Assembly: GCF_002355515.1 (NCBI RefSeq)
Contig: NZ_AP014809.1
Coordinates: forward strand, 1,574,501-1,638,500
DNA length: 64,000 nucleotides
Reading direction: 5' to 3'
Source of the DNA: Methylorubrum populi
GTDB lineage: Bacteria > Pseudomonadota > Alphaproteobacteria > Rhizobiales > Beijerinckiaceae
Position 1 is the stretch's first letter. Each line of letters starts with the position of its first letter. Positions 8,705-14,044 of the stretch are shown in pieces. The position numbers and the translations under genes are program-made. The notes under the pieces are model-generated. The model saw only the letters and a program-made list of their open reading frames with translations. It was not told the origin of the DNA and did not search any database.

Positions 8705-9336
8705 CACTCGATCTCGTTCGCGAGCGCGTTGACGGCGGCCGCCGTCATGGCGCTGCCGCCACGGCGGCCATGGACCACGACGAAGGGCACGCGCCCGTCC
8801 CGCGCCAGAGCCTCCTTGGATTCCGCCGCGCCGACGAAGCCGACGGGGATGCCGATCACCGCCGCCGGGGGCGCGACGCCCTCGTCCAGCAGTTCGAGCA
8901 GGCGGAACAGGGCAGTCGGCGCGTTGCCGACGGCGACGACGCTGCCGGGCAGCTTGTCCCGCCACAATTCCATCGCCGCGGCCGAGCGGGTGGTGTTCAT
9001 CTGCGCCGCCAGCTCCGGCACGCGCGGATCGCCGAGCGTGCAGATCACATCGTTACCAGCCGGCAGCCGGGCACGGGTGACGCCGTCGGCGACCATGCGC
9101 ACGTCGCACAGGATCGGCGCGCCGGCCTTCAGCGCCGCCTCGCCGGCCGCGGCGAACGTGTCCGACATCTCCACATCGCGCGGCAGGTCGGTCATGCCGC
9201 AGGCATGGATCATCCGCACCACGACGCGCTCGGCCGCGCCGGACCAGCGGGCGAGATCGGATTCGGCGCGGATCATCGCGAAGGAGCGCGCGTAGATCGC
9301 GCCGCCGTCGCGGATGTAGTCGTGGCGGGCACTCAT
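8704..9336 (-). CDS. cobH: Precorrin-8X methylmutase
   Basis: 210 residues, the normal length for CobH/CbiC. It begins MSARHDYIRDGGAIYARSFA; the catalytic His is in VVRMIHACGMTDLPRDVEMS (residue about 43). The core APILCDVRMVADGV, the AVGNAPTALFRLLELLDEG segment and IGIPVGFVGAAESKEAL are canonical. It moves the methyl group from C11 to C12 to give hydrogenobyrinate. The start overlaps the cobG stop by four bases. No missing residues are evident. Confidence 0.95.
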   Translation of the reverse strand: MSARHDYIRDGGAIYARSFAMIRAESDLARWSGAAERVVVRMIHACGMTDLPRDVEMSDTFAAAGEAALKAGAPILCDVRMVADGVTRARLPAGNDVICTLGDPRVPELAAQMNTTRSAAAMELWRDKLPGSVVAVGNAPTALFRLLELLDEGVAPPAAVIGIPVGFVGAAESKEALARDGRVPFVVVHGRRGGSAMTAAAVNALANEIE

Positions 9337-10622
9337 CTCACGTCGTCCTGAAACACGGAATCCAGCGCCGGACGCCCGGCGGCTGCGGCCTTCCTTATCC
9401 GGTCCAGCGCCGCCTCGAAAGCGAGACGCGTTGCCGGCTCGGCAGAGGGAGGCCCGGCGAGCACCACGTCGTAGGCGCCGTCGCGGCCCACCAGGGTGAG
9501 ATCGGCGGGGCCGGGATGGGCGCAGCCCTTGGCGCAGCCCGAGACGTGCGCGGTCAGCCCGAGCCCGGCGAGCGGGGCCAACGCCTGCGCCAGCCGGGCG
9601 GCGTGGTCGGGCACCGGCGTGGTGCCGGAGCGGCAGGCCGGCGCGCCGGGGCAGGCGGCGATCCGGCGGCGCGGATCGTCCGGCGCCACGATGAAGCCGG
9701 CCGCCGCCAGCTCCGCCTGAAGGTCGGGGGTGCGGCTCGGGGGGGCAATGAGGGCGAACCCGCGCTCGGCGCTCAGCCGCACGCCGTCCGGGCCGGCCAG
9801 GGCCGCGACTCGCTCCAGCCGGTCGGCGGTGCAGCGGCCGAACGGCGCCTGGACGACGAGGGCCGCGGTCTCCCCGGACAGGGTCACGAGCCCCGGCGCG
9901 GCCGGAGCGGGGGCCGGCGCGAGCGGCATCGGCTCGAACGGGAAGAAGCCGGCCACGGCGGCGACCACGGCCCGCTGGCGCGGGTCGAGATCGCGCATCC
10001 GGCGTCCGCCGATCTCGGCGAAGGCTGCCAGCGCGAGGCCGAGGGCACCCGCCGCCCGCCGCTCGGGCAGGACGCCGCAGCGCAAGGGGCCGCTCTCGCC
10101 CGCGAGCCCGAAGGCGATCTGCCCCGGCCCCTCAGCCAACAGAAAGAAGTCGGCCTCCACCGCGCCGAGGCCGTGGCCGCCGCCGCCGTCGATCGCCACC
10201 AGCGTCTTGGGCGGCAGGCCCGGCACGGCACGGCCCGCGGCCTCCACGGCGCGGGCAAGCGCCGGTACGTCGATCCGCTCCGCCGGATCGAGACCGGCGA
10301 GCGGCGCTGTCAGCGTCAGGCGCTGCGGGCCGCCGTCGTCGCGGGTGTCGCCGAGGCCCGCTTCCGCCAGGGCGCAGGCGAGGTGCGGCGCGCTGGCCTC
10401 GCTGACGCCGCGGATCTGGAGGTTGCCGCGGGCGGTCACGTCGATATGGCCGTTGCCGTGGGCGCGCGCCCCCGCGGCGACCGCCCGCATCTGCGCGGGG
10501 GTCAGGCGTCCGAGCGGCGGGTGAACCCGGGCGAGCAGTCCGTCGCCGGTCGGCATCGGCCGGGCGAGCGAGGGGCACCAGCCGCGTCGGGCGCCCTCGG
10601 GCAGGGTGCGGCGGGTCGTCAT
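9333..10622 (-). CDS. cobG: Precorrin-3B synthase (CobG)
   Basis: 429 residues from ATG 10620-10622, chosen because it overlaps the cobN stop (ATGA) and begins MTTRRTLPEGARRGWCPSLARPM, a normal CobG opening. It is a sulfite/nitrite reductase-like protein. The N-terminal ferredoxin-like half has NGHIDVTARGNLQIRG. The Fe-S cysteines are seen in AACPGAPACRSGTTP and HVSGCAKGCAHPG. CobG is the oxygen-dependent monooxygenase that prepares the ring for contraction, so its presence marks the aerobic pathway. The middle (residues about 200-260) is Ala/Arg-rich, as common in this GC class. Confidence 0.92.
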   Translation of the reverse strand: MTTRRTLPEGARRGWCPSLARPMPTGDGLLARVHPPLGRLTPAQMRAVAAGARAHGNGHIDVTARGNLQIRGVSEASAPHLACALAEAGLGDTRDDGGPQRLTLTAPLAGLDPAERIDVPALARAVEAAGRAVPGLPPKTLVAIDGGGGHGLGAVEADFFLLAEGPGQIAFGLAGESGPLRCGVLPERRAAGALGLALAAFAEIGGRRMRDLDPRQRAVVAAVAGFFPFEPMPLAPAPAPAAPGLVTLSGETAALVVQAPFGRCTADRLERVAALAGPDGVRLSAERGFALIAPPSRTPDLQAELAAAGFIVAPDDPRRRIAACPGAPACRSGTTPVPDHAARLAQALAPLAGLGLTAHVSGCAKGCAHPGPADLTLVGRDGAYDVVLAGPPSAEPATRLAFEAALDRIRKAAAAGRPALDSVFQDDVR

Positions 10623-13600
10623 TCGGCAGCCATCATCGCGTCGGCAGGCGCCGCGTTGCGCCGGCTCTGCCACAGGCCGCGGGCGCGGAGATCCTCGAAG
10701 CGCTCGAGGATGGCGCGGGTCGCCTCAGGGTTGGCCGCCTTCAAGGCCTCGAAGGTCTCCGGGTCGGCAATCCAGGCGCCGTAGAGCCGATCGAGATCGG
10801 CGCTCGTCACGGCCTCCGTCGCGGCGGCGAGGACGAACACCGCATCGATCCCCTGCGCGAATTCCTGCGCGCCGCGGTAGCCGTGGCGGAGCTGGGCCAC
10901 GATCCAGCGCGGATGGGCGAGCCGGCCGCGGATCAGGCGGGCGACGTCCTCGCGGGCGGTGCGGGTGCGCGGCGCCTCCGGGTTCGAGACGTCGAGGCTG
11001 TAGAGGGCGGGTGCCCTCCCCCCGGACGCGGCGGCGGCGAAGAAGCCGCCCATGGCGTCGGCCGCCGCATCGCCGTCGAGCAGGTCGCGCTCGGCGACAT
11101 CGAAGGCGTGGACATAGGCGTCCGCCGCCGCGACCCGGGCGGCGAAATCCGCGTCCGGCGCTTCCGCATCGCCGTAGGCGTGGGTGGTGGCGGCGAGATA
11201 GGCGGCGCCGAGATCGGTGCGCGCCGCCCAGGCGCCGTCGAGCGCCGTCTCGGCCGCCCCCGCGCCGTAGCGGCCGGGCGCGGCGCCGTAGATGCGGGCG
11301 GCGGATTCGCCCCGGCGTCTTGCGGCGGCGAGCGGGTTCTCCTCGTCCTCCTCCTCGCGGGCGGCCACCGCGCGGGCGGCGCGGTCGAGCAGCGCCAGGG
11401 TCTCGGGGAAGGTGTCGCGGAAGGCGCCGGAGACGCGGCAGGTCACGTCGATGCGCGGCCGGTCGAGGAGGGCCAGCGGCAGCACCTCGAAACCGGTGAC
11501 GCGGGTCGAGGCGTGATCCCAGACCGGGCGCACGCCCATCAGCGCCAGGGCATGGGCCACGTCCTCGCCGCCGGTGCGCAAGGTCGGCGAGGCCCAGAGA
11601 TCCATGACGATGCGGGCGGGATACTCGCCCTCGTCCTGCAGGTAGCGGCGCACCACGGCGTCGGCGGCCTTGGTGCCGAGCATCGTCGCGGCGCGGGTCG
11701 GCAGGCTGCGCGGGTCGAGCGTGGTCAGGTTGCGGCCGGTCGGCATCACGTCCTGCCGCCCGCGCGAGGGCGAGCCGGCGGGGCCCGGCGCGACGAAGCG
11801 ACCGTCGAGGGCGGCAATGAGGGCGGCGCGCTCGGCCTCGGCGCTGGCGCGGACCGGCTCGGCAGCATCGGCGGGCGCGCGGCCGAACACGTGCAGGCCG
11901 TCGCGGAACGGGGTCTCGCCGAGATCGCACAGATGCGCGTCGAGGGCGGTCAGCGCGTCGGCCATCGGCGTGTCGCCGTCGATGCCTGCGCCCGCGAGCA
12001 GGCCGGCGGAGGCGGCTTCATCGAGGATCGCCTCGGCGATCAGCCCGGCCCGGCGCGGATCGAGCACGCTCGCGGCGGAATACTCTTCCACCAGTTCGCG
12101 CAGGGCCGCGGCCTCGGGGGTGAGCCCGGCGGCGTCGATCGTCGGGGTGAGATGCCCGAGGGCGATTCCGCCGAGCCGGCGCTTGGCTGGCGCGGCCTCG
12201 CCGGGATCATCGACGATGAACGGATAGACCACCGGCAACGCGCCGATGGCGAGCGCCGGCCAGCAGGTGGCCGAGAGCGCAACCGCCTTGCCGGGCAGCC
12301 ACTCGGTGGTGCCGTGGGTGCCGAGATGGATCAGCGCGTCGAATGTTTGCCGAATGCCCAGGTAGAAGGCGAGATAGGCGTGGGTCGGGGGCTCGTCGGG
12401 GTCGTGGTAGCCGGCCTTGCGGTCGGCGGCACGGCCACGGTCGGGCTGGAGGACGATCGCAAACTCACCAACCCTCCCCCCTCTGCGGAGGAGGGTGCCT
12501 GCGGAGCAGGCGGGAGAGGGGGCGACGTTTCCGGAGAGCGCGCTCCCCTCTCCCGACCCGCTCCGCGGGCCACCCTCCCCCGCAGAGGGGGGATGGCTTT
12601 TGGTGGCGCGCACCATCCGGAACCGGAACGCTCCATCACGGCACACCGGGTCAGCCTCCGGCGCGCCCCAGCGCTCGGTCAGCTCAGTCCGCCGCTCCGC
12701 CGGCAATCCCTCGAACCATGCCGCGTAATCGGCGAGCGGGACCGAAAAGCCCGGCTCGCCCGCGGTGAGCGCCGCCATCAGCGCACCCGCCTCCGGCAAT
12801 TCGCCCGCGGCAAAGCCTGCCGCGGCGAGGTCGGCGGCGATGGCGCGGGCGCTGTCCGGCGTGTCGAGGCCGACCGCGTAGCCGGCCCGGCCGCCGCGGG
12901 CGGGATAATCGGACAGCACCATCGCGAGCCGGCGCTGCTCGCGCGGCGTCCGCCGCAGACGGATCCAGGCAGCGGCGCGGTCGGCGAGCGCGGCGATACC
13001 GGCGGAATCGGGCACGGCGCGGCGTTCCGAAAACCCCTCGACCGCCTCGGCCTCCTCCTTGAAGGAGATCGGGAAGCCCGAGAGCCGCCCGTCTAATTCC
13101 GGCAGTGCCACCTGCATGGCGAGATCGGCCGCGTTCATGCCGCGGCCGGAGGCGGCCCAGGCGTCGCGGGGCGCGCCGATCGTGTAGGCCTGCAGCACCG
13201 GGCAGTCGGCGGCATCGAGCACGAAGCCGGCATCGTCGCGGGCGGAGAAGGCGGTGGCCGCGAGCACGATGTCGGGCCGGCGCAGGGCCAGCGCCGCGCG
13301 CAAGGTCGCGACCGCTTCCGGGTCCTTCAGGCTCGACACGGCGAGCGTGACGCAGCCGATGCCGCGCTCGGTGAGGGCCGCGGCGAGCCGGGCGGCGGGC
13401 GCGGTCTCGCCGGAGAGCACCGCCGAGCGGTAGACCAGCAGCAGCGCCAGCGGCCCCGGCCCAGCGGCCCGCATCGCCGCCTCGACGGAGAGCGGCCCGC
13501 AGCCGGGACACCACGCGAAGCCCCGCGGCAGCGCCCGCGGCGGCTCCGGCTCGAAGGCGGCGCCGGCCTCCGCCGCGAGGCCGCGCAGCAGGTTCTTCAG

Positions 13601-14044
13601 GTTGTCCGACCCGCCCGCGCGGAAATAGGCGTCGAGGCGGGCGCAGGTCTCCGGCGGCAGGGTGGAGAAGGCGTCGAGGCCCGGGTCCGGCCGGTCGTCG
13701 CCGGGCAGCACCGCGAGCCGCACGCCGTGGGCCCGGGCCGCCGCGGCGGCGCGCTCGATGCCGTAGCGCCAGTAATCGAGCCCGCCGAGGCAGCGGATAA
13801 CGCAGACCTTGGCGCGGGCGATCACCGCGTCGATGTAGAGATCGACCGACATCGGGTGGCGCAGCTGCGCCATCTTGGCGAGCCGCAGCGAGGGCAGGCC
13901 GGGCTCGGCCGCATGCGCGCGCGCGACCGCCGCGAGGTCCGTATCGGTAAACGACAGAAAGACGATCTCGCCCGGGCTCTGGCCGAGATCGACCGCCGCC
14001 TCGCCCTCGTCGAGGGAGACCGTATCGAGGCGGATCAGGTGCAT
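10619..14044 (-). CDS. cobN: Aerobic cobaltochelatase subunit CobN, with in-frame palindromic insertion
   Basis: About 1141 residues from MHLIRLDTVSLDEGEAAVDL (ATG 14042-14044, 13 bp after the upstream gene). Family marks are KVCVIRCLGGLDYWRYG, GFAWCPGCGPLSVEAAM, LGTHGTTEWLPGKAVALS (metal-chelatase H-subunit signature), VVYPFIVDDPGEAAPAKRRL and GVRPVWDHASTRVTGFEVLP. CobN inserts cobalt into hydrogenobyrinate a,c-diamide together with CobST, which are not here. At residues about 484-525 the usual link between FRFRMVR and an FxxVLQPDRG strand is replaced by a low-complexity Ser/Gly/Arg stretch. It is encoded by a large inverted repeat (12472-12594) that keeps the frame. Whether the chelatase still works is unknown; downstream motifs are intact. 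Confidence 0.93.
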   Translation of the reverse strand: MHLIRLDTVSLDEGEAAVDLGQSPGEIVFLSFTDTDLAAVARAHAAEPGLPSLRLAKMAQLRHPMSVDLYIDAVIARAKVCVIRCLGGLDYWRYGIERAAAAARAHGVRLAVLPGDDRPDPGLDAFSTLPPETCARLDAYFRAGGSDNLKNLLRGLAAEAGAAFEPEPPRALPRGFAWCPGCGPLSVEAAMRAAGPGPLALLLVYRSAVLSGETAPAARLAAALTERGIGCVTLAVSSLKDPEAVATLRAALALRRPDIVLAATAFSARDDAGFVLDAADCPVLQAYTIGAPRDAWAASGRGMNAADLAMQVALPELDGRLSGFPISFKEEAEAVEGFSERRAVPDSAGIAALADRAAAWIRLRRTPREQRRLAMVLSDYPARGGRAGYAVGLDTPDSARAIAADLAAAGFAAGELPEAGALMAALTAGEPGFSVPLADYAAWFEGLPAERRTELTERWGAPEADPVCRDGAFRFRMVRATKSHPPSAGEGGPRSGSGEGSALSGNVAPSPACSAGTLLRRGGRVGEFAIVLQPDRGRAADRKAGYHDPDEPPTHAYLAFYLGIRQTFDALIHLGTHGTTEWLPGKAVALSATCWPALAIGALPVVYPFIVDDPGEAAPAKRRLGGIALGHLTPTIDAAGLTPEAAALRELVEEYSAASVLDPRRAGLIAEAILDEAASAGLLAGAGIDGDTPMADALTALDAHLCDLGETPFRDGLHVFGRAPADAAEPVRASAEAERAALIAALDGRFVAPGPAGSPSRGRQDVMPTGRNLTTLDPRSLPTRAATMLGTKAADAVVRRYLQDEGEYPARIVMDLWASPTLRTGGEDVAHALALMGVRPVWDHASTRVTGFEVLPLALLDRPRIDVTCRVSGAFRDTFPETLALLDRAARAVAAREEEDEENPLAAARRRGESAARIYGAAPGRYGAGAAETALDGAWAARTDLGAAYLAATTHAYGDAEAPDADFAARVAAADAYVHAFDVAERDLLDGDAAADAMGGFFAAAASGGRAPALYSLDVSNPEAPRTRTAREDVARLIRGRLAHPRWIVAQLRHGYRGAQEFAQGIDAVFVLAAATEAVTSADLDRLYGAWIADPETFEALKAANPEATRAILERFEDLRARGLWQSRRNAAPADAMMAAE
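12472..12594. repeat. Large imperfect inverted repeat inserted in frame within cobN
   Basis: The left arm starts CCCTCCCCCCTCTGCGGAGG at about 12472 and runs to GGGAGAGGGG near 12521. The right arm, read on the other strand, starts CCCCCCTCTGCGGGGGAGGG near 12594 and ends CGGGAGAGGGG near 12543. The arms therefore match over roughly 50 bp with few differences. The spacer (about 12522-12543) itself carries short complementary ends GAGAGCGC/GCGCTC. Such CCCTCTCC...GGAGAGGG palindromes are typical of dispersed intergenic repeats. Here the element is translated as about 41-44 residues inside CobN. It probably forms a strong hairpin in the mRNA. Confidence 0.8.

Follow-up and report, generated by a model that had tools for sequence, protein, structure and literature searches.

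Palindromic sequences lying in frame inside bacterial proteins are already known. The Rickettsia palindromic elements are described in a review (PMC10969869) as palindromes of about 150 bp, falling into several families and found in frame inside unrelated genes. The question whether palindromes within proteins are occasional accidents or regularly give rise to new protein segments dates from the description of these elements. Intragenic CGTC-/GTAG-tagged REPs are reported from many species, many of them in genes for DNA synthesis and repair, and the same account notes that recB carries different REPs at a roughly corresponding position in X. campestris and X. oryzae (PMC3733652); the word Methylobacterium occurs nowhere in that paper. 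The 2009 M. extorquens genome paper (PMC2680597) mentions one MITE, about 400 bp long and IS-related. Searches of the open-access literature turned up nothing recognisable as elements of this kind in Methylobacterium proteins. What is new here is that the same protein sites are reused repeatedly by several families.

The element studied lies in cobN of Methylorubrum populi, within the 64,000-nucleotide stretch of DNA that was analysed as a whole (the window; Table 1), and belongs to family A of the five palindromic repeat families labelled A–E. Families A, D and E have CCCTCTCC-like arms in common and are possibly distantly related; by eye, neither B (CCTCATCCTGAGG) nor C (CATTGCGAGCGCAG) looks similar to them. 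As with the Rickettsia elements, these are palindromes of about 100–150 bp, dispersed in the genome and present in frame in unrelated genes of the same genome (cobN and those encoding urea carboxylase, a glycosyltransferase and a DNA ligase). The likeness is one of form and position: the elements are GC-rich, come from Methylobacterium and Methylorubrum and, unlike those of Rickettsia, include several families that reuse one site of one protein across the group. They are also longer than the CGTC/GTAG REPs (20–40 bp), and family A ends in CCCTC/GAGGG with no tag (read by eye, the ends being approximate), while family C, whose first letters read CGTC by eye, is possibly one of the CGTC-tagged REPs. 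With bacterial MITEs they share small size, inverted repeats, dispersal and the lack of a gene of their own, but the PF01797 search yielded no source transposase and no clear target duplication was seen by eye around the family A copies of the own genome. The Y1/RAYT transposase model PF01797 had no match in this genome and matched 5 of 14 control genomes; a RAYT-driven REP was ruled out by its absence.

Table 1. Features of the window discussed in the text (positions are those of the window)
Feature	Position	Strand	Basis
cobN, cobaltochelatase subunit CobN, 1141 aa, host gene	10619..14044	-	NCBIfam NF008973, PF02514
CobN insert region, 52 codons (7 in loci outside both genera)	12455..12610	-	orthologue comparison
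Family A palindromic element, imperfect, 125 bp	12472..12596	.	inverted-repeat arms; family recurs in own genome
Whole predicted hairpin	12465..12606	.	RNA fold, z -10.9
cobG, precorrin-3B synthase; unoccupied in window, second host gene in other Methylobacterium	9333..10673	-	TIGR02435
CobG inter-domain linker, 15-codon, Pro/Ala-rich; palindrome site in relatives	9894..9938	-	orthologue comparison

The host gene was assigned to CobN by NF008973 with 1727 bits (cut-off 1235), and its start at MHLIRLD is common to the orthologues. A first-pass annotation, made from the letters of the window, had described a palindrome of 123 bp interrupting cobN in frame and adding 41–44 residues, and had likened it to the Rickettsia elements as a dispersed palindrome tolerated inside a protein. 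All of this held up closely: the element is 125 bp long, its 26-nt arms (12472-12497 and 12571-12596) are 92% complementary, and the stretch from FRFRMV to VLQPDRG measures 156 nt against 21 nt outside both genera, equivalent to 45 extra residues, with no stop and no frameshift in the insert region. A cobN pseudogene was ruled out by the fully open frame and the high score of the CobN model. When the stretch 12460-12610 was folded as RNA, a highly stable hairpin was obtained (-125.9 kcal/mol, pairing over the full extent given in Table 1), and none of 200 dinucleotide shuffles was equally stable. A known RNA family was rejected, since all 33 Rfam matches at E up to 1 fell under the gathering score; 32 of them were to microRNA models, as expected for an element that is a long hairpin. 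In the AlphaFold model of CobN the insert (residues 484–523) has a pLDDT of about 30 and is flanked by strands 477–479 and 527–532, so that the ~45 added residues are predicted to be disordered between two beta strands; the best solved match was M. tuberculosis CobN (7c6o).

Copies of family A were sought in the own genome (5.94 Mb) by blastn with the 156-nt stretch as the query, which gave 76 matches, merged into 34 places; this census is possibly incomplete, 40 of 67 first-look candidates having been scored. The elements are mostly about 120–160 bp long and mostly outside genes. When the flanks of all 34 places were judged for an in-frame intragenic position by a codon-usage score, two passed, those in cobN and in the urea carboxylase gene, and the remaining 32 failed the filter. 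For family E, 20 loci of 45 matches were read, and two places were in frame, one in a glycosyltransferase (named by eye) and the other in the cisplatin-damage-response DNA ligase TIGR04120, where the copy is shortened; for family B no in-frame case was present among 30 loci read (34 matches). Because the coding-score filter is strict, these own-genome counts are lower bounds; a filter of the same kind, applied to hairpins, called several genuine CobG insertions non-coding, and homology was used there instead. One family A copy was seen by eye directly upstream of a truA-like start. In three others (L003, L023 and L027) one arm is swapped for another palindrome, of the TCCGAGTCGGG...CCCGACTCGGA type (by eye), which suggests hybrid or nested elements.

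The site was then compared across species. One genome scan provided 79 cobN loci, 28 from outside Methylobacterium and Methylorubrum and 51 from inside, to which the window was added. Outside both genera, 27 of the 28 loci have 21 nt (a 7-codon turn) at this point (the other, L103, was dropped as its site did not align); the first-pass annotation had named an insert in every orthologue, distant genera included, as fatal to an element insertion, and the outside loci show the opposite. Four early-branching Methylobacterium also have 21 nt. The other 48 rows of the two genera carry between 21 and 258 nt, every length being a multiple of 3. Families A–E or their remnants were recognised by motif and blastn in 35 of these 48 rows, all in frame: A in 10, D in 10, B in 8, E in 4 and C in 3. 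Eight of the other rows are longer but unassigned, and five have 21–27 nt. A second search added 12 same-genus genomes (some from species already sampled), with 21–240 nt, again all multiples of three, with 21–39 nt in five. More distant genomes (L134 to L139, left out of the tree below; L140 was not measurable) had 21, 21, 27, 24, 21 and 21 nt, respectively. An ordinary variable loop with chance symmetry was ruled out, since the inserts match dispersed repeats that the outside loci lack. Judged from sequence comparison, at least five repeat families have occupied the CobN site within the group. The single insertion proposed in the first-pass annotation is therefore real as an element and too narrow as an account, as at least five families share the site and three further genes behave alike (see below).

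The CobN inserts are also confined in frame and position. None of the 28 inserts of at least 100 nt contains a stop in the reading frame, as compared with 9 and 24 inserts in the other two frames. In the rest of CobN, 47 other rows compared with the window showed inserts of at least 8 residues at two places only, with a maximum of 12 residues. In Microvirga sp. VF16 (L074 6560-6672) a family-B-like palindrome was observed in CobN near residue 187, close to a second position that varies in Methylobacterium CobN (window residue 194).

Turnover at the site was followed on a CobN tree of 57 rows (quick IQ-TREE, insert removed), with the states of L039 and L067 set to family B from blastn. The states require at least 16 changes when the 8 rows with no family are omitted and 23 when they are included, although the exact numbers are soft because support is weak for 15 of the 54 inner branches. 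If only starred branches are counted, family A still needs 7 changes, D 6, B 4, and C and E 2 each. The nearest relative of the window, Methylorubrum thiocyanatum (L033), has a CobN that is 95% identical, yet it carries family E at the site. The branching order also suggests loss of the CobN insert in some species.

Similar occupancy was found in other proteins. Methylorubrum, including the window, has a plain Pro/Ala-rich CobG linker. Among 56 loci, 35 were measurable at this linker, and in-frame inserts of families D (10), A (3) and E (1) were counted, several of the short matches being weak. Urea carboxylase is occupied at one site in 5 of 10 orthologues (from 41 genomes of the genus); the families, assigned by eye, are A in two of these, whose frames differ, B in another, and D nested within A in the remaining two. 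After these sites, sharing between several families was expected beforehand for the DNA ligase, and the count bore this out: from the same number of genomes (41), 30 ligase loci were obtained and 29 measured, with A in 9, E in 5, D in 4 and none in 11, although 4 of the 18 family matches are weak (66–111 nt). Eight of the 11 ligase loci with no family match are 45–57 nt long; two others (L225 and L226) have 171-nt linkers that match none of A–E and are possibly a further repeat family. The CobG linker, urea carboxylase and the DNA ligase share the multi-family occupancy seen in CobN. When the CobN insert was used as a protein query, 71 candidates were examined and four proteins among them contained family A: CobN, urea carboxylase, the ligase-associated helicase TIGR04121 and PBP1C. 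In PBP1C it is N-terminal and possibly lies ahead of the true start. The corresponding search with the family B insert returned CobN only (3 of 258 candidates) and did not widen the host list. In-frame palindromes were also noted in the cisplatin-response DNA ligase (P0003) and, in another genome, in the associated DEXH helicase (L212).

These observations are probably best explained by insertion followed by a filter on frame and fold, with a lengthened loop accepting further elements. A palindromic repeat family is scattered in the genome, largely outside genes, and a gene-borne copy would persist only where the frame is kept, no stop is introduced and a disordered loop is compatible with the fold. 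Permissive places of this kind would be the CobN beta-turn and the linkers of CobG, urea carboxylase and the DNA ligase. A first insert would turn a tight turn into a long loop, which is a larger target, and the long loop could then take further insertions, nested insertions and in-frame deletions, with families replacing each other. Nesting is observed at one site in two genomes, and decay is seen as remnants and shortened copies; movement of the elements, and their persistence by tolerance and not by benefit, are what we infer. Family A is readily translatable: in 30 copy-strands scored outside genes, the three frames were open in 24 (the frame read as PPPSAGEG), 25 and 16. Against tolerance alone stands the constancy of the family A frame, which is read as PPPSAGEG in CobN (6 of 6 rows with a clear motif) and in the ligase (7 of 7). 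Other frames are used in the urea carboxylase of the own genome and in CobG of L065. Behind this one-frame bias may lie selection for a polar peptide, common ancestry or an exact point of insertion.

Tolerance alone is also challenged by the density of elements at the CobN loop. Using the 28 CobN inserts as blastn queries against the 51 methylobacterial loci (736 kb, with 85.9 kb called intergenic), 61 A–E elements were found: the CobN loop accounts for 28, the cobG stretch for 12 (the cobG_region rows plus the 'other' rows at 2.7–2.8 kb; 9 verified in frame, three not alignable), the stretch after cobJ for 16 and other places for 5. The loop holds 28 elements in 6.15 kb against 21 in the 85.9 kb, a density ~19 times that of intergenic DNA (binomial p 1e-20) and above what neutrality alone predicts, although this is an upper figure, because the rows are related, the queries come from the loop itself and some coding DNA escaped the gene caller. 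Of the 28 loop elements, 27 were likewise found with a query from a different locus. A family-free scan of the same loci agrees with the excess: it detected 39 strong hairpins, of which the CobN site accounts for 16, the cobG stretch for 10, the stretch after cobJ for 7 and other places for 6. The intergenic stretch after cobJ, ~3.5 kb downstream of the cobN stop (loci L031-L109), is itself a recurrent place for A–E elements.

Because of the density excess, the main rival is site-directed insertion, in which the copying machinery would favour particular targets, possibly hairpins already present or symmetric DNA rich in GC; it would account for the second concentration directly after cobJ (16 of 61 elements), for D nested within A in urea carboxylase and for a family A frame that is constant at two sites. 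We consider it rather unlikely, given that in L071 and L072 the turn is short and bare despite family E elsewhere in the locus (an argument that is partly circular) and that the own genome has no PF01797 transposase. Equally tentative is the broader idea that particular protein loops serve as shared docking sites, with several unrelated palindromic families steered to the same codons of the same enzymes and palindromes attracting palindromes; if so, exchange of a disordered segment between species would outpace the evolution of the remaining protein. That Methylobacterium CobN needs a long flexible loop, for which palindromes are simply the available material, would agree with the >27 nt found in 43 of 48 rows and with the one polar frame preferred by family A in CobN and the ligase. 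This is improbable, however, as the inserts vary widely in sequence, family and length (36–258 nt), the site has 21–27 nt in 5 of 48 rows, and CobG, urea carboxylase and the ligase behave alike. Very much less probable still is a hairpin acting as a conserved cis-regulator of B12-gene translation, a role suggested in the first-pass annotation and in keeping with the very stable fold in the window. Among 41 CobN inserts of at least 45 nt, only 22 fold with z < -3 (30 mononucleotide shuffles each), the other 19 do not reach this value and several are near 0; the insert is short or absent in several species, and the same families occur in unrelated genes. A conserved role of this kind thus found no support.

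The CobN loop and the linkers of at least three other proteins host different in-frame palindromic repeats, and one bacterial group, whose genera include strains kept in laboratories, offers dozens of natural replicates at one site (short, full, nested and decayed). Methylobacterium and Methylorubrum would provide a natural record, or map, of permissive protein sites that lets tolerance be told from targeting. The own genome also contains a second CobN/ChlH-like gene (G000:C1:5628732-5631707; best stretch ~31% identical), and a family A copy (L008) lies ~1.7 kb from it.
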